Part shown: one piece after another, positions 5,895 to 42,762 of the stretch
How the letters are laid out: every line of letters starts with the position of its first letter
Position numbering within the stretch: the stretch's first letter is position 1
From: Bradyrhizobium archetypum
GTDB lineage: Bacteria; Pseudomonadota; Alphaproteobacteria; Rhizobiales; Xanthobacteraceae
Length of the DNA: 64,000 nt
Assembly (NCBI RefSeq): GCF_013114835.1
Contig: NZ_JAAVLW010000006.1
Coordinates: 252,001 to 316,000, forward strand
Direction: 5' to 3'
Notes under the pieces: generated by a model
Databases searched by the model: none
The model's input: only the letters and a program-made list of their open reading frames with translations
Told to the model about the DNA's origin: nothing
Made by a program: the position numbers and the translations under genes

Positions 5895-7082
5895 ATGATG
5901 AGAGCCATTGCGATGTGCTGCGCCGGGCTACTGGCGTTAGCGGCGAGCACCGCCAGCGCCGACAACGAAATCCTGATCGGCCAGACCATGCCCTACAGCG
6001 GTCCGCTGTCGAGCTATTCCGGGCTCGGCAAGGTCGCGCAGGCTTATTTCGACAAGGTGAACGCGGAAGGCGGCATTAGCGGCCGCAAGCTCAAGCTGCT
6101 CAGCCTCGACGACGCCTATTCGCCGCCCAAGACCGTCGAACAGACCCGCCGGCTGGTCGAGCAGGACGAGGTGCTGCTGGTTTTCGGCTCGCTTGGCACT
6201 GCGACCAACAGCGCGGTCCATCGCTACCTGAACGCGAAGAAGGTTCCGCAACTCTTCATCACTACCGGCGCCAGCAAATGGGCCGATCCGAAGAATTTCC
6301 CGTGGACGATCGGCGGAATGGCCTCGTACCATTCCGAAGGCGTCATCTACGCCAAGCACGTGCTGCGCACCAAGCCCGACGCAAAGATCGCGATCCTGTC
6401 GCAGAACGACGATTTCGGGCGCGACTATGTCTCTGCATTCAAGCGCGGCCTCGGCGACAAGGCGGCCAGCATGATCGTGGCCGAAGCGGTCTATGAGAGC
6501 ACGCAGCCGACGATCGACTCGCAACTCGCCACGCTGAAGGCTTCCGGCGCCAACGTGTTCTTCGGCGTCGCCATCGGCAAGTTCGGCTCGCAGATGATCC
6601 GCCGCAGCGCCGAGATGGGTTTCAAGCCGGACCTGTTCCTGGTGCCGACTTCAGTCACCTCGATCGCGACGATCCTGACGCCCGCGGGGCTGGAAAACGC
6701 CACCGGCCTGGTCTCCGCGGCCTATTTGAAGAACATCAACGATCCGCAATGGGCTGACGATGCCGACGTGAAGGAGTATTTCGCCTTCATGAAGCAGTAC
6801 ATGCCTTCGGCCGACCCGCACGACACCACCTACGCCAGCGGCTATACCAGCCTGACGTTGCTGGCGCATGTGCTGCGCGCGTGTGGCGACGATCTCAGCC
6901 GTGCGAACGTTTTGAAGAAGGCGACCTCGCTGAACAAGCTTTCACTGCCGCTGCTGCTGCCCGGCATCACCGTGACCACCGGTCCCGACGACTATTTGCT
7001 GTTCCAACAGCTCCGCATGCAGCGCTTCGACGGCAAGAGCTGGGTTGGGTTCGGCGACCTGATCGAAGATCAAGAACCGTAA
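5895..7082 (+). CDS. Periplasmic branched-chain-amino-acid-type ABC substrate-binding protein
   Basis: 395 residues. The signal peptide MMRAIAMCCAGLLALAASTASA ends near residue 22. The body is a type I periplasmic binding fold of the LivJ/Peripla_BP_6 class (EILIGQTMPYSGPLSSY, followed by the VNAEGGISGRKLKL segment typical of the family). CAGGGAG precedes the tandem ATG start. No permease or ATPase gene adjoins it, so it must pair with a transporter elsewhere. In rhizobial catabolic clusters such proteins often bind aromatic or carboxylate substrates rather than amino acids, which fits its place between an oxygenase and a ligase gene. Confidence 0.9.
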   Translation: MMRAIAMCCAGLLALAASTASADNEILIGQTMPYSGPLSSYSGLGKVAQAYFDKVNAEGGISGRKLKLLSLDDAYSPPKTVEQTRRLVEQDEVLLVFGSLGTATNSAVHRYLNAKKVPQLFITTGASKWADPKNFPWTIGGMASYHSEGVIYAKHVLRTKPDAKIAILSQNDDFGRDYVSAFKRGLGDKAASMIVAEAVYESTQPTIDSQLATLKASGANVFFGVAIGKFGSQMIRRSAEMGFKPDLFLVPTSVTSIATILTPAGLENATGLVSAAYLKNINDPQWADDADVKEYFAFMKQYMPSADPHDTTYASGYTSLTLLAHVLRACGDDLSRANVLKKATSLNKLSLPLLLPGITVTTGPDDYLLFQQLRMQRFDGKSWVGFGDLIEDQEP

Positions 7083-31272: not shown

Positions 31273-31357
31273 GCCCCTGTGGCGGAACTGGTAGACGCGC
31301 TCGACTCAAAATCGAGTTCCGCAAGGAGTGCTGGTTCGATTCCGGCCAGGGGCACCA
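31273..31357 (+). tRNA. tRNA-Leu (anticodon CAA)
   Basis: 85 nt. Acceptor GCCCCTG (31273-31279) pairs with CAGGGGC (31347-31353), followed by A and an encoded CCA. The D arm lies in GGCGGAACTGGTAGACGCG. The anticodon stem CTCGA/TCGAG encloses CTCAAAA, giving CAA. A variable arm (GTTCCGCAAGGAGT) and T-loop GGTTCGATTCC complete the class II tRNA. Its 3' end is the integration site of the adjacent island. Confidence 0.95.
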
Positions 31358-31358
31358 T
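31342..31358 (+). repeat. att site at tRNA-Leu 3' end (left end of island)
   Basis: CCGGCCAGGGGCACCAT covers the last part of the T arm, the acceptor stem and CCA of tRNA-Leu. The identical 17 bp recur at 37148-37164. tRNA 3' ends are the usual target of P4-type integrases, and an integrase remnant follows at once. Confidence 0.88.
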
Positions 31359-31451
31359 CCCACCGTCCGCCCGCGTTCGCTAACGTTCATTTTCCTCAAT
31401 AATGACGGGCACAAGTCGCAATTTTGGCTTCGCCGCCGTTCGCGCAAATCT

Positions 31452-31510
31452 CATGGTATCCGGTGACTTGCATGGTATCTTCCGTGGTAGATCATTGGGG
31501 TCATGGTATC
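31452..31510 (+). repeat. Three CATGGTATC direct repeats beside the integrase remnant
   Basis: Exact copies begin at 31452, 31471 and 31502, between the att site and the integrase coding start (31536). Short direct repeats in this position are typical arm-type binding sites for tyrosine integrases or excisionase sites. A related TATGGTAC lies near the other end at about 37079. Confidence 0.55.
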
Positions 31511-31535
31511 GCGACTTTTGGGTGGAATCGAACCG

Positions 31536-32010
31536 ATGCCGGTCAAGAACGACACCTATTTTCGGCACCTGAAAGCTGGCGAAAAAGACTACAGCGATCC
31601 GACAGTGGCGGCCTTTTCATGCTCGTCACCAAGACCGGATCAAAGCTCTGGCGCTACGCGTACAACTTTGCCTCCAAGCAGAAGCTGCTCGCGTTAGGCC
31701 CGTATCCCGTCACTTCTCTCGCAGACGCGCACATCAAACGCGACAACGCGAAGAAGCTGCTTTCCGAAGGGATCGATCCTTCCGTCAACCGCAAGGAAGA
31801 GCGCCGCAATGCGCGGATGGCGCGGGCCAACACTTTTGAAGCCGTCGCCAAAGAGCTCATGGACAAGTTCGAGGCAGAGGGCAATGCCCCGAAAACGCTG
31901 AAGAAGAAACAGTGGCTTCTTGATTTCGCCAGTACGGAGTCGGCAAGCGGCCGCCTGAAATCCTTGATGCCTTGCGGAAGATCGACCTGTGTGAAACTGG
32001 GCAGGGAGGC
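31536..32010 (+). pseudogene. P4-type tyrosine integrase, N-terminal remnant with frameshifts
   Basis: Three frames must be joined. MPVKNDTYFRHLKAGEKDYS reads from 31536. After loss of one base near 31595 the reading continues as SDSGGLFMLVTKTGSKLWRYAYNFASKQKLLALGPYPVTSLADAHIKRDNAKKLL to QWLLDFA near 31930. A second shift leads to RPPEILDALRKIDLCETG in the third frame at about 31950-32005. These are the DUF4102 arm-binding domain and the start of the core-binding domain. The whole catalytic domain with Arg/His/Tyr residues is missing. It is a dead integrase and marks the element that brought the island. Confidence 0.85.
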
Positions 32011-32088
32011 GCCCGTTGGCTCCACTCCGGCGGAGGACGACGCGCTAGCAAGGCTCCTTGTTCGGTTGCCCTATTTTCCGAGCTCGAA

Positions 32089-32262
32089 ATGCCTGAGCAG
32101 GAACTGACTCGCCGCGCTCTGTACGATCTTGTGCGGTCCCGGCCGATGACAAAGGTCGCCGAGGATTTGAGAATATCCGACGTCGCCCTGAAAAAGATTG
32201 TGACAAGCATCGGGTGCCCGCGCCCCACGATCGCAGAGCGAGAGACTATCGATGCAACCTAG
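32089..32262 (+). pseudogene. Fragment of an HTH-like protein
   Basis: 57 residues: MPEQELTRRALYDLVRSRPMTKVAEDLRISDVALKKIVTSIGCPRP. The segment resembles the start of a family in which 'LTRxELYDLVWSxPMxxLAxxxGISDVALxKxC' precedes a longer body. Here it stops after about 55 residues in unrelated sequence, so it is probably a truncated remnant. It directly follows the integrase ruins in the same frame as their last piece. Confidence 0.5.
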
Positions 32263-32484: not shown

Positions 32485-32935
32485 CTACCTGAGTGAAATC
32501 GTGATCCGGCTCAGGTTCGCAACAAACTCCAGGCCTGCTTTCGGGCCTTTCAGATCGAGCACAACCCCGTTTTCATTTTCTCAGACTGACGCCGCCCGCG
32601 CCGCCCACTAATGCTCCGCCCACTCCGACCGCACTGTAGGTGCCGGCGAAGTCCCTGACGTCGCGTATGCCGGAAGCTCATCCTTCCAGGCGGCTGGCCG
32701 TTGCGCCCGCGGTGATGCCGAGACTCTGGCCGGTTGCCGTGAAGCGGTAATTGCGGCCGCGATAGGAGAGCACGCCGCGTCCGCCGCCCACGCCAGCGAC
32801 CAATCCAGCCTTCACGAAATTGACAAGCACGTAGCCTGACGCCTGCGCGACCGACGGCGGCGGCAGAAGCAAGACGAATGCAAACAGCGCGATCGCGACA
32901 CAACGAAGCATGGGCGTCAACATCCATTCGCTCAA
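32485..32935 (-). pseudogene. Secreted Gly-rich protein gene with stop codon and frameshift
   Basis: The first part reads MSEWMLTPMLRCVAIALFAFVLLL...QASGYVLVNFVKAGLVAGVGGGRGVLSYRGRNYRFTATGQSLGITAGATASRLEG and meets TGA at 32678. The same frame continues plausibly (ASGIRDVRDFAGTYSAVGVGGALVGGAGGV) until one extra A near 32586 shifts it. The next frame then gives ENGVVLDLKGPKAGLEFVANLSRITISLR to a TAG at 32485. The parent was about 150 residues, secreted, with a glycine-rich beta fold; family unnamed. Two independent lesions argue for real decay. Confidence 0.7.
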
Positions 32936-33429
32936 CTTTCAGGGATTGCCCACGTCCACCTTCTTCCAGGTCTGGTCGCGGGGGCAAGAAGCGCGATTGT
33001 CGCCATCAATAGCAAGGCCGCATGAAGCCTTCCGCCGGCGCGATTGTAATCCTGCACGCGATGACGCAACCCGCCCAACAGGAACGACGCACCCAACATA
33101 AAGAGGGAGTTAGTGACGATCGCGCCGGCAATCGAGGCCTTCACAAGCATATACTCTCCGGCGCGGAGAGCAGCCAGGGCGATGATCAGTTCCGTCAGAT
33201 TCCCCAAGGTCGCATTGAGCAACCCGCCTATCGCATCTCCCGTTTTCTCGGCCACACTCTCGGTTGCGTGGCTGAGCAAGGCAGCAAGAGGCACAATCGC
33301 CAACACGGCGAGGACAAACAAGGAGGTATGGGCCGAAGGCGCAATCGTTTCGACAACAAGCACCGTCGGAACGAAGGCCAGCATCCAAAGGAGCGGGCTG
33401 TGTCGAATTTCCTTGAATAGCGGGTTCAT
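32932..33429 (-). pseudogene. Ca2+/H+ antiporter (CaCA family), 3'-truncated
   Basis: 165 residues. The N-terminal half of a calcium/proton exchanger is intact: MNPLFKEIRHSPLLWMLAFVPTVLV, the alpha-1 motif ATLGNLTELIIALAALRAGE and GAIVTNSLFMLGASFLLGG. It then ends after LLLMATIALLAP in foreign sequence; the second alpha repeat is absent, so transport is unlikely. Past the junction (about 32985) a different frame reads RDQTWKKVDVGNP-stop, like the C-terminus of another gene, suggesting a deletion fusion. A FixK/FNR-type box is centred 66 bp upstream of the ATG. Confidence 0.8.
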
Positions 33430-33488
33430 GCGGCCTGACGCGTAAGGATTCTGCCGACAAATCGCACACGTGGGCCCCGGTCTGGACC

Positions 33489-33502
33489 TTGATTTAAGTC
33501 AA
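33489..33502. promoter_or_regulatory. FixK/FNR-type box
   Basis: TTGATTTAAGTCAA fits the rhizobial FixK2 consensus TTG(A/C)-N6-(T/G)CAA. Its centre is 66 bp upstream of the antiporter start on the minus strand. With the usual -41.5 placement, transcription would start about 25 bp before that ATG. Confidence 0.75.
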
Positions 33503-33591
33503 ACCCATATAGTTGGTTGTGCCGCGATCTGAGTCGCTATTCCGCTATGCGTACTTTGCTCCGAGGCCAGATCCGGCTCGCGGCTGCAGGC

Positions 33592-33897
33592 CTACCGTAG
33601 ACCTAGTGGCGAGCGCCGGTAGCCATTGTTTCGAGCCTCATTCCTGCACACAAAGCTGCCGGTAAACCCCGCCGTGTAGCGCTTCTGCCCTTTGGTGTAG
33701 TAGCGCTCGCGTCCGAAATCGAGCCAGACGACCGCATCGCCGGGACAATGGCGCTGCGCCTGCGACTCATAACGGAACGGCGTCAAAGCCTGTGCCATTA
33801 CGCCACGCGACGCACACAAATTGAGAACAAGCAGTGCGTTGAGGACAAACAATGCGGCGGAACAGCGACAGAAGCTCGGCCGCCTGGGCGCCAGCAA
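33592..33897 (-). CDS. Small secreted protein of unknown function
   Basis: 101 residues from a TTG start. A signal peptide (CRCSAALFVLNALLVLNLCASRGVMAQA, to about residue 36) precedes a 65-residue domain FRYESQAQRHCPGDAVVWLDFGRERYYTKGQKRYTAGFTGSFVCRNEA with two Cys. The motif 'HCPGDxVVWL...Y..KGQ..Y....G.FVC' is one I recall from many small rhizobial secreted proteins without known function. The signal-peptide part overlaps the end of the DUF1269 gene by 131 bp in another frame, so the DUF1269 end or this start may be an artefact of a past deletion. Confidence 0.65.
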   Translation of the reverse strand: MLAPRRPSFCRCSAALFVLNALLVLNLCASRGVMAQALTPFRYESQAQRHCPGDAVVWLDFGRERYYTKGQKRYTAGFTGSFVCRNEARNNGYRRSPLGLR

Positions 33898-34369
33898 GCG
33901 CTGCCTGCAACGCTGCTTCCTTGGTGTGATCGAGTGACGTCTTCAGCACCGTACCACCCTCACCCTTGAGCCCCTCGAGCACTTTGTCCGCGGTGACTTT
34001 ACGTACCAGCACGAACAATGCAGCAGTTCCGGGCTGTATGGCAGCGGCGGTTTCCTTCATCCACTTGTCGTCGATACCTACATCGGTCAGATATCCGCCC
34101 AGCGTGCCGGACGCTGCACCAAGGGCCGCGCCAAGCAATGGCGCTAGAAGAATCAGGCCAATGAGAGTTCCCCAAAAAGTGCCTGAAACGGCCCCGGCGG
34201 CAGTGGTGTTGATCAGTTGATTCAGCTTGATGCGTCCTTCGGTATCCTTTACCGCAATCACCGCATCGCCCAGCTCGATCAGATACTCCTTCTGCATCGC
34301 CAGCAGTTTTTGACGAACTTCTTCCGCTTTCGATTCAGTGGGAAATGCGATCACCACAAGATCACTCAT
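33767..34369 (-). CDS. DUF1269 membrane-associated protein
   Basis: 200 residues. Family opening MSDLVVIAFPTESKAEEVRQKLLAMQKEYLIELGDAVIAVKD, Gly/Ala-rich central membrane segment (GTFWGTLIGLILLAPLLGAALGAASGTLGGYLTDVGID) and DKVLEGLKGEGGTVLKTSLDHTKEAALQAAL, where the family normally ends. The last 40 or so residues (LLSLFRRIVCPQRTACSQF...) are unlike the family and run into the next gene, suggesting loss of the native stop. AGGGAGG precedes the ATG at 34369. A perfect FixK-type box lies 110 bp upstream. DUF1269 genes are commonly stress- or low-oxygen-induced in rhizobia (from memory). Confidence 0.82.
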   Translation of the reverse strand: MSDLVVIAFPTESKAEEVRQKLLAMQKEYLIELGDAVIAVKDTEGRIKLNQLINTTAAGAVSGTFWGTLIGLILLAPLLGAALGAASGTLGGYLTDVGIDDKWMKETAAAIQPGTAALFVLVRKVTADKVLEGLKGEGGTVLKTSLDHTKEAALQAALAGAQAAELLSLFRRIVCPQRTACSQFVCVAWRNGTGFDAVPL

Positions 34370-34472
34370 CTGCATCCCTCCCTTGATACCCGGCGCCTGC
34401 CGCCCCAATCACCTTGTCTAGCGACCACTCGCGGGCATTGAGTGAAAGTCAGATCGTTGCCACACGTTTCCG

Positions 34473-34486
34473 TTGATCTAGATCAA
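34473..34486. promoter_or_regulatory. Perfect palindromic FixK/FNR-type box
   Basis: TTGATCTAGATCAA is an exact 14-bp palindrome matching TTGAT-N4-ATCAA. It lies between the divergent DUF1269 gene (start 34369) and the Cys-rich secreted protein gene (start 34658); centre distances are 110 and 178 bp. Confidence 0.85.
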
Positions 34487-34657
34487 CAGAAGCCGGCGCT
34501 AGGTTTGGCGCATTGAAAAATCAGTTGGTCGCGGGCGGGAATCCATCCCCCGTTCACAAGTTGTTGTGCGATGCGAACCTTCCCGAGTTGCGTTCATTGC
34601 AAATCGCAGCAATGCATTTCGTGCGGACACTCGGGACATTCTATCAAGAAGGCGGAC

Positions 34658-35077
34658 ATGCGAGCGAGTCGAATTTCCCTGAGCTTTGCGCTAGCGCTCG
34701 GTTGCGGAACCACCATTCAGAGTACCGCGCTTTCGCAAGAGTACCGAGGAACGTGGGAACAGCAAAGGGCGTGCACGCCTGACGTCTGGCGGTTATGCAG
34801 CTCGCAAATTCCAGACGTGGACAGGATCGTGGCTTGCTTACGGCGAAATGCTCCGCAACTCAGCGACCAGTGCCGCGCGGTCTTTGCACAACGCGATGCA
34901 CCTTCACGTGGTGAGGATCGCGAGTACGGGCAACGGCGCTACGATCGAGAGTATGGGCCACGGCGGTACGATCCAGATTATGGGCCAAGACCTTACGACA
35001 GGGACTACGGGCCACGGCCTTACTACGGTCCAAGGCCTTACTATGGTCCAGCGCCTTATGATTATAACGACGACTAA
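34658..35077 (+). CDS. Secreted Cys-rich-repeat protein with YGPRxYD tandem tail
   Basis: 139 residues. Signal peptide MRASRISLSFALALGCGTTIQSTALS (1-26). A four-Cys module follows (ACTPDVWRLCSSQIPDVDRIVACLRRNAPQLSDQCRAVF, about 38-76), with spacing C-x8-C-x12-C-x11-C, as in the protein encoded at 60019. The C-terminal 50 residues are tandem Tyr/Gly/Pro/Arg repeats (EYGPRRYDP, DYGPRPYDR and shorter YGPRPY). AAGAAGGCGG precedes the ATG. It is divergent from the DUF1269 gene across a FixK box. Probably a periplasmic or surface protein. Confidence 0.78.
   Translation: MRASRISLSFALALGCGTTIQSTALSQEYRGTWEQQRACTPDVWRLCSSQIPDVDRIVACLRRNAPQLSDQCRAVFAQRDAPSRGEDREYGQRRYDREYGPRRYDPDYGPRPYDRDYGPRPYYGPRPYYGPAPYDYNDD
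34922..35059 (+). repeat. In-frame tandem repeat, 3 x 27 bp then 21 and 2 x 18 bp
   Basis: Units beginning GAGTACGGG, GAGTATGGG and GATTATGGG are 27 bp each (34922-35002). A 21-bp unit (35003-35023) and two 18-bp units (35024-35059) follow, each with TA(C/T)GG(G/T)CCA. All keep the reading frame, so length variants would change only the number of YGPRPY motifs. Confidence 0.8.
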
Positions 35078-35943
35078 GACTGGCCATTTTCATCGGTCTT
35101 GGCGCTGCAAACGGATTGAGATGTCCGTGCTGCCGATGCTGTTAGTTGGTCGGACGCTGGCAAAGCGTCTCAAAGGTGCTCTCGCGCGAGATCAACACGT
35201 GCGGTACATCGCCTGTAGGGGGCTTTCTGCGTAGGAAGATCGTTCGGACCTCAGACCACCGCGATCAGCGATCCACCGTCTCACAGGTGCGGGATACATT
35301 GCATTGCAGCACTTGCGCCGCCCCCGGGTCCGTGACCGGCCGTGCACGAGGGCCGAAATTCCAAGCCGCGTCCCATTATCGGCGGGTGAGCGCGGCTTTA
35401 TGTTGAGCCAATCTTTTGACCCGCCGCCGCAATGGGGGCGATTACAGCATTTGCATACCAGCCCCGCGAGGATTGCCAAAAGCATCAATGTGAACAGACG
35501 GCACGCGCATTTGTCGGAAAATTGCCCATGCAATGCCGCTGTTCATCCTCGATGTGAAAAGTAACGGTACGAAACTACACCAGCTCGAGGTAAGCTTTGG
35601 CCTCGACCGGGAAGCGATCGAGCACAGCCGAGACTTGGCGGCGCGACTTCGGCAGCGGCATTTCCGCGCCAGCGCAACCTAGTGATCACGGTCCTCGACC
35701 AAATCGGGTGTGAAGATCCACGAGGAACTCATCTTTCCCGACTAGCCAGACACCTGCTCACCTGAACGGAGCCGGGCACGTGGGGTGGATGTTTTTCGCG
35801 CGTTTGCGCGCACAAGGGATAGAACCTGTTGACATAGGTCAATTCGATCAATCTAGCACGCCTCAAAGCTGACTTCGGGTGTCATTCGCGGCTTCACCTC
35901 ACAAACCTGCTGCATTGGCGCCTCAATCACAGGAGGAAGTGCC
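35078..35943. other. 866-bp gene-poor stretch inside the island
   Basis: No convincing full gene on either strand. A 28-codon minus-strand frame at 35575-35661 (MPLPKSRRQVSAVLDRFPVEAKAYLELV) looks like the tail of a lost gene. The inverted pair GTGCTCTCGCGCGAG... near 35180 is weak. The last 120 bp hold a FixK-type box and the leader of the Gly-rich gene. The region reads as decayed sequence. Confidence 0.55.
35829..35842. promoter_or_regulatory. FixK/FNR-type box
   Basis: TTGACATAGGTCAA fits TTGA-N6-TCAA with 5-bp inverted arms TTGAC/GTCAA. Its centre is 108 bp upstream of the Gly-rich secreted protein gene at 35944, giving a predicted leader of about 67 nt. A TTGACA hexamer overlaps it. 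Confidence 0.7.
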
Positions 35944-36345
35944 ATGCTCCGCTACATTCTCATCGCCGTTGCAGCAACCGTTCTGCTAGCCGCAACCCTC
36001 ATCCCCGATGACGCTTACGCTCGCCGCGGCGGAGGCGGCGGCTTTCGTGGCGGTGGAGGCGGATTTCACGCCGGAGGCGTCCGCGGCGGCGGCATGCATG
36101 CTGGCCGTATTGCACGCCCATCGCATCCGATAGCGGGTCGTCCGATAGCAGGTCGCCCCGGCCGTCCAGTTGCGGGTTATCCAGGCTATGGTCGCGGCTA
36201 TTATCGGCCAGGATGGGGCTATGGAGCCGCTGCAGTTGGTGCGGCGGCTGCGGCGGGCCCGTATGGCTATTACGGGAGCTACGGCTGCTACTATGACAAC
36301 TACGGTCAGTACATCTGTCCCGGGCAATATCCATATCGGTACTGA
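35944..36345 (+). CDS. Secreted Gly/Tyr-rich protein
   Basis: 133 residues, CAGGAGGAAGTGCC before the ATG. Signal peptide MLRYILIAVAATVLLAATLIPDDAYA (1-26), then RRGGGGGFRGGGGGFHAGGVRGGGMHAG, HPIAGRPIAGRPGRPVAGYPGYGRGYYRP, a short hydrophobic Ala/Gly stretch and GYYGSYGCYYDNYGQYICPGQYPYRY with two Cys. Low-complexity envelope protein type common in Bradyrhizobium. A FixK-type box lies upstream and a hairpin directly downstream, so it is a single-gene unit. Confidence 0.82.
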   Translation: MLRYILIAVAATVLLAATLIPDDAYARRGGGGGFRGGGGGFHAGGVRGGGMHAGRIARPSHPIAGRPIAGRPGRPVAGYPGYGRGYYRPGWGYGAAAVGAAAAAGPYGYYGSYGCYYDNYGQYICPGQYPYRY

Positions 36346-37147: not shown

Positions 37148-37164
37148 CCGGCCAGGGGCACCAT
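37148..37164 (+). repeat. Right att copy of the island
   Basis: CCGGCCAGGGGCACCAT, identical to 31342-31358 at the end of tRNA-Leu. The next base begins the stop codon (complement) of the small gene at 37165, so the uninterrupted chromosome would have tRNA-Leu directly followed by that gene. Confidence 0.88.
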
Positions 37165-42355: not shown

Positions 42356-42762
42356 AACCTCCTCCATTTCTCGCAACGTCCGACCGCAATCGCGATCATC
42401 AGCTTGATTCTGGAGTGCATTCCGTCGAGCGCCGTAGTCTTGACTGCGATCAAACGGCACGAAATCTCCGGTCTCGTAACTTTGATACTACCACCGCCGA
42501 GCGGCCAAGGCGCGCGAAGTCGTGGCGCGCACGCCGAAATGCCTTCGACCGGGTCGTACAAAATCCAAAGTAATTTCAATTACGTACATGTTCGCTATTT
42601 TAGTCTACGTGGGCGCGGCCGCGCAGAATCGCGAGCGCGATGTCCGGCCAAGCTCGGGCATGCGCGAGCGAAGACGGACAGCCTTCGCCGACCTGGCAGG
42701 CCCGTCACGCGGTCAGGCCGGCAACATCAGGCACATCCGGAAGCCAAATCCGAGACCGTGTC
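42356..42762. other. Promoter region upstream of the glutamate dehydrogenase gene
   Basis: About 400 bp between the dehydrogenase start and the stop of the binding-protein gene, both on the minus strand. An AT-rich tract near 42563-42605 (aaagtaatttcaattacgta) is the likely promoter zone. No gene or clear operator seen. Confidence 0.5.

Follow-up and report, generated by a model that had tools for sequence, protein, structure and literature searches.

The genome of Bradyrhizobium archetypum (7,017,218 bp in 35 contigs) contains, within a stretch of 64,000 nucleotides that we refer to as the window (C31:252001-316000), a decayed 5.8-kb island at a tRNA-Leu gene, in which three FixK/FNR-type boxes of 14 bp lie upstream of island genes. 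This raises the question if these boxes are operators that bring the genes under oxygen control, as a preliminary description of the locus had suggested, and if such a gene set is private to this island. We consider it likely that the island harbours a fragment, detached from a low-oxygen-type gene cluster, in which three genes, for a Ca2+/H+ exchanger, a DUF1269 protein and a Gly-rich protein, each came with a FixK/FNR-type operator of their own and are putatively oxygen-controlled.

The argument is carried by conservation of the boxes across genomes. For every island gene, matches were collected from up to 195 Bradyrhizobium genomes, and the box TTGAYN4RTCAA was scored within 300 bp upstream, our own locus being excluded. 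The exchanger set comprised the 30 best loci (110 other genomes have a match), the Gly-rich set the 29 best (106 genomes), and the DUF1269 set all 26 other loci with E up to 1e-70; Gly-rich loci were taken among the matches listed, a second fragment of the same gene not being counted, and all 29 outside our genome could be placed. A box was found at 23 of the 30 exchanger orthologues, 15 of the 26 DUF1269 orthologues and 21 of the 29 Gly-rich homologues. A blastn alignment between the upstream DNA of these boxed loci and the window (E up to 1e-3) was obtained for none of the exchanger, two of the DUF1269 and one of the Gly-rich cases. Boxes that persist in front of the same gene families, in surroundings that are mostly non-alignable, are in our view the decisive sequence evidence for putative shared operators. 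A second, named Bradyrhizobium DUF1269 set, which overlaps the first, gave a box at 15 of 25 loci.

Control sets were scored over 400 bp. No box was present at any of 19 DUF1269 paralogues (43-67% identity; the partial or distant loci L062, L068 and L069 are omitted), nor at any of 36 DUF1269 homologues outside Bradyrhizobium, six of which have less than 400 bp upstream and three of which are partial matches. Expressed as density, the three module locus sets contain 407-478 boxes per Mb, whereas the four control sets contain 0-15; in the 400-bp count, 4 of the 30 Gly-rich loci were not placed by tblastn. The preliminary description had placed each box in front of an island gene. This holds for the exchanger, DUF1269 and Gly-rich genes with their conserved boxes, but not for the Cys-rich gene, which had been named as a second target of the box at 34473: none of the best 29 other Cys-rich loci has a box within 400 bp. 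We therefore rejected this gene as a target and dropped it from the set.

Related clusters recur in other genomes of the genus, so the module is not a peculiarity of the island. At L130, L132, L217, L218/L219, L225 and L304, exchanger, DUF1269 and/or small secreted gene have several boxes in their surroundings and neighbouring genes that, with families assigned on the L130 copies, encode a GNAT protein, an AI-2E-type transporter, a DUF3141 protein, phosphate acetyltransferase (pta), acetate kinase (ackA) and FabI. Order and spacing at L217 are those of the island (box, DUF1269, box, full-length exchanger), but nothing between DUF1269 and exchanger there matches the small secreted gene; the box at 34473 is identical in L217 and L218. 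In 23 of the 110 other genomes with an exchanger match (80 have both genes among the matches listed), no more than 5 kb separate exchanger and Gly-rich gene, which are on opposite strands in 21 of these 23. DUF1269 is found within 5 kb of the Gly-rich gene at 5 of 26 loci, and within 5 kb of the exchanger at 3 of 26, the exchanger list being partial. The genes are thus not kept together in most genomes; where they have been recombined, each tends, as far as the sequences tell, to retain its box. Judged from these comparisons, the island set is a detached, rearranged piece of a recurrent, putatively low-oxygen-type cluster of the genus.

Some further features of these clusters may be mentioned. 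Two TraD-type genes and one MobA/MobL-helicase gene occupy L217:12994-16713, a stretch that begins about 1.2 kb away from the DUF1269 gene with its box. Three 19-20 kb stretches (L131, L224 and L227) with 6, 6 and 8 boxes represent further box-rich clusters. On one contig (G073:C562), exchanger and Gly-rich gene occur twice in mirror-image order, reflecting either a duplication or an assembly artefact.

The host possesses candidate regulators for such boxes. On contig C1 (L136), a boxed ccoN gene, a fixK1-like regulator gene and the genes for FixL, FixJ and FixK2 lie close together; nifA is present in the genome as well. FixL scores 912.9 bits against the FixL equivalog and FixJ 332.4 bits. 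FixK2 matches PDB entry 4i2o with E 4e-105 but falls short of the cut-off of the NCBIfam FixK model (237.7 bits, with 300 required), so its name rests on the 4i2o match and the neighbourhood. The FixK2 consensus, as given in the consulted parts of PMC5582078 and PMC9104804, is TTG(A/C)-N6-(T/G)CAA, and the portion of Table 2 seen in PMC9104804 lists box-to-start distances of 22-287 bp, a range that includes the 73-117 bp of the window boxes. According to our proposal, low oxygen would activate the FixL-FixJ-FixK2 cascade of the host, or else a relative of the FNR type, and the regulator dimer would bind the boxes upstream of the start codons and recruit RNA polymerase. Expression of DUF1269, its small secreted companion and the Gly-rich protein would be raised, whereas the exchanger box would drive a stub. 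Because each gene has its own box, cassettes could be reshuffled and moved while still wired to the oxygen circuit of the host.

Which regulator would read the boxes is a question in itself. A possible but rather unlikely alternative to FixK2 is that they are mainly read by the FNR-type, fixK1-like protein encoded beside ccoN, as a sub-class of sites with a TA core (TTGATnTAnRTCAA). TA occupies the box centre at 50 of the 61 module sites outside our genome (DUF1269 14/16, Gly-rich 17/21, exchanger 19/24). In our own genome it does so at 5 of 39 sites, three of which are the island boxes (P 0.001), as compared to 2 of the 36 sites elsewhere. The fixK1-like protein has cysteines at positions 12, 15, 18 and 26, which we take to resemble the FNR iron-sulphur motif, and scores better against FnrL (164.6 bits) than against FixK (138.6 bits), both below the cut-off of 300. 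TA-core boxes were also seen in our genome between an SDR gene, presumably fixR-like, and nifA (L306:6790), and upstream of pckA (L307:6319). These two sites, of no assigned regulation, are counted against the alternative. In Bradyrhizobium diazoefficiens, by eye, TA is present in just 4 of the 24 visible FixK2 motifs of Table 2 in PMC9104804 (26 units), in favour of a separate sub-class; on the other hand, the published FixK2 consensus leaves the N6 free, and the Rhodobacter sphaeroides FnrL sites from chromatin immunoprecipitation are, in the part of PMC2908626 consulted, mostly not TA. Furthermore, sites within an orthologue family share ancestry, so that the TA core is a lead, not a result.

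This alternative alters the regulator alone, and the rest of the explanation stands. One may go a step further and propose, with considerable reservation, mobile box-plus-gene cassettes, spread by island and conjugative DNA, whose distinct TA-core operators would answer to an oxygen-sensing regulator of the FNR type and stand outside the FixK2 set. A recipient would then gain low-oxygen envelope and calcium functions prewired to its own oxygen circuit. For the island, we regard FixK2 as the default and most likely regulator on present sequence evidence, with the TA core leaving room for one of the FNR type.

Several observations weigh against our proposal. Boxes are absent within 300 bp at 7 of 30 exchanger, 11 of 26 DUF1269 and 8 of 29 Gly-rich loci; two of the 11 boxless DUF1269 loci (L046 and L141) lie directly behind a boxed exchanger. 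Since the exchanger and Gly-rich sets consist of best-scoring loci, they are biased toward close relatives, and their sites lack independence. A box does occur at -460 in one Cys-rich homologue (L103). DUF3141 gave no match in our own genome, in a search that included no positive genome. Of the three island boxes, that at 35829 is the weakest, with 8 of 10 defined bases. A -10 element at a fixed distance from the boxes was sought, and no clear or strong one was seen; nosR is likewise reported without a recognisable -10 element in the part of PMC5582078 consulted. Finally, the island exchanger is broken, so that one of the three boxes now stands before a stub. The working antiporter of the preliminary description thus did not hold up: the window encodes only a 5' part of the exchanger, whose full-length L217 relative passes TIGR00378 with 294.1 bits (cut-off 211.15).

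A second alternative, which we judge to be improbable, is that the boxes came along with the island DNA and have fallen out of use, as relics on an island in decay. Integrase and exchanger are broken, and the C-terminus of DUF1269 is altered. However, the DUF1269, small secreted, Gly-rich and Cys-rich genes keep open frames with nonsynonymous divergence (dN) well below synonymous divergence (dS), although such values (NG86) are averages of the two lineages and no proof that the genes are used at present. For DUF1269, dN is 0.015 and dS 0.118 in comparison with L217; for the small secreted gene, 0.06 and 0.39 against the L218 copy; for the Cys-rich gene, 0.076 and 0.54; and for the Gly-rich gene, 0.08-0.19 and 0.74-1.06 against four relatives. 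The exchanger stub shows a dN of 0.0045 and a dS of 0.16. The identity of the 34473 box in L217 and L218 likewise argues against mere relics.

As to the proteins themselves, DUF1269 departs from its relatives after about residue 164 and continues for about 35 residues (33767-33880); the altered tail runs, in a different frame, into the beginning of the small secreted gene. An AlphaFold 2 (AF2) model of DUF1269, with a predicted local distance difference test (pLDDT) value of 71, consists of two beta-alpha-beta halves around a Gly-rich hairpin. A Foldseek search of the model against the PDB gave no hit with E <0.001, the best being alkyldihydroxyacetonephosphate synthase (0.035) and CutA1 (0.06). 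What could qualify the set as an "envelope" module are only apparent signal peptides and a Gly-rich hairpin, as judged from the sequences.

The three 14-mers were confirmed at their positions (Table 1), and an excess of boxes over chance is evident at the level of both window and genome. In the window, TTGMN6KCAA has 11 matches, as compared to a shuffle mean of 4.25 (0 of 100 shuffles reached 11), and 27 sites agree with TTGATN4ATCAA when up to 2 mismatches are allowed, as compared to a mean of 12.8. Genome-wide, TTGAYN4RTCAA occurs at 39 sites in 7.02 Mb (5.6 per Mb), its reversed pattern at 5; TTGATN4ATCAA occurs at 19 sites, its reversed pattern at none. Searched with TTGAYN4RTCAA, the island is enriched over the genome: it contains 3 of the 39 sites (binomial P about 5e-6, for a stretch chosen post hoc), and the simulated P of finding any three of the 39 as close together as 2354 bp is 0.003. 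The fixK1-like/ccoN locus (C1:294630-295770) holds the one other triple among the 39 sites that is equally tight. In the window, TTGAYN4RTCAA has a fourth match, TTGACTGCGATCAA at 42440-42453 near the gdh start; it was rejected as a member of the set, as none of nine relatives' gdh loci carries the box, so a lone consensus match carries little weight. Chance clustering of a short palindrome in the AT-richer DNA of the island, for which the lower GC content and the unconserved 42440 match might be cited, is very improbable indeed in view of the simulated P and of the cross-genome conservation with its negative controls.

The island is integrated at the 3' end of the tRNA-Leu gene and is bounded by 17-bp repeats. 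Its guanine-cytosine (GC) content is 0.56-0.61, as compared to 0.61-0.66 in the flanks. Locus L217 of genome G062 matches two segments, 32977-33569 with 92.6% and 33924-34526 with 96.8% identity; between the gdh genes of G062 and our genome, identity is 89%. The genome with the closest gdh (94%) among nine others compared is G148, yet its DUF1269 DNA is just 80% identical. This reversal supports horizontal acquisition, which had been proposed before and which also agrees with the tRNA-Leu insertion and the repeats. The decayed state of the integrase is likewise supported, since Pfam recognises its arm domain only. A search for the empty integration site in relatives gave no tRNA match within the stretches taken; G148 holds an att-core copy there, beside the same flanking open reading frame (ORF; L299:19402), with no tRNA match in the preceding 19 kb. 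At the left end of L130, next to the same flank, a 167-residue ORF represents a putative integrase piece. It may be that the tRNA-Leu site is a hotspot of integration.

Table 1. Features of the tRNA-Leu island (positions refer to the window)
Feature	Position	Strand	Remark
tRNA-Leu (CAA), integration site	31273..31357	+	ARAGORN
attL CCGGCCAGGGGCACCAT, tRNA 3' end plus next base	31342..31358	+	17-bp repeat
Integrase remnant, arm DNA-binding domain alone recognised	31424..32107	+	Pfam PF13356, E 2e-19
Ca2+/H+ exchanger 5' stub	32932..33429	-	residues 1-155 of 367
FixK/FNR-type box TTGACTTAAATCAA (read toward exchanger)	33489..33502	-	-73 from exchanger stub start
Small protein with apparent signal peptide, DUF1269 companion in relatives	33592..33897	-	69% to L130 copy
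DUF1269 protein	33767..34369	-	PF06897, E 1e-34; C-terminus altered and extended relative to relatives
FixK/FNR-type box TTGATCTAGATCAA	34473..34486	-	-117 from DUF1269 start
Cys-rich protein, island cargo without conserved box	34658..35077	+	box in 0/29 homologues within 400 bp
FixK/FNR-type box TTGACATAGGTCAA	35829..35842	+	-115 from Gly-rich start
Gly-rich protein, apparent signal peptide	35944..36345	+	dN 0.08-0.19, dS 0.74-1.06 against four relatives
attR, second copy of CCGGCCAGGGGCACCAT	37148..37164	+	17-bp repeat

The comparison across genomes assigns DUF1269, the Gly-rich protein, the Ca2+/H+ exchanger and probably the small secreted companion to the putative FixK/FNR-type regulon of many Bradyrhizobium strains, and suggests that genes of this kind can move as units with an oxygen switch of their own. 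As the root-nodule interior is low in oxygen, these genes are direct candidates for roles in symbiosis and microoxic survival.

In its anatomy, the island resembles tRNA-integrated islands with what we take to be P4-type integrases: it shares the 17-bp repeat of the tRNA 3' end, an arm-domain integrase remnant and a lower GC content. It differs in that just 5.8 kb remain and Pfam finds no catalytic domain. We found no account of this island or of a tie between DUF1269 and oxygen in the literature covered; the main FixK2 regulon list lay outside the search, so absence from print is not established. DUF1269 is not mentioned in PMC6515984 or PMC9104804, and neither paper uses the words "antiporter" or "calcium" in its main text. 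With the FixK2 regulon of B. diazoefficiens (FixLJ-FixK2-FixK1), as far as the consulted parts of the sources describe it, the island has in common the box consensus and box distances, and its host has FixL, FixJ and FixK2. The island boxes, however, share a TA core, and their binding is predicted from sequence. The microoxic clusters blr/bll4634-4659 and 6059-6074 of B. diazoefficiens are similar in that, according to the portions consulted of PMC6515984 and PMC9104804, they are rich in small genes for stress, GNAT and membrane proteins, some of which have a FixK2 box of their own; judged by the same portions, they differ from our set in gene content, and the cassettes described here reside on a tRNA-Leu island.

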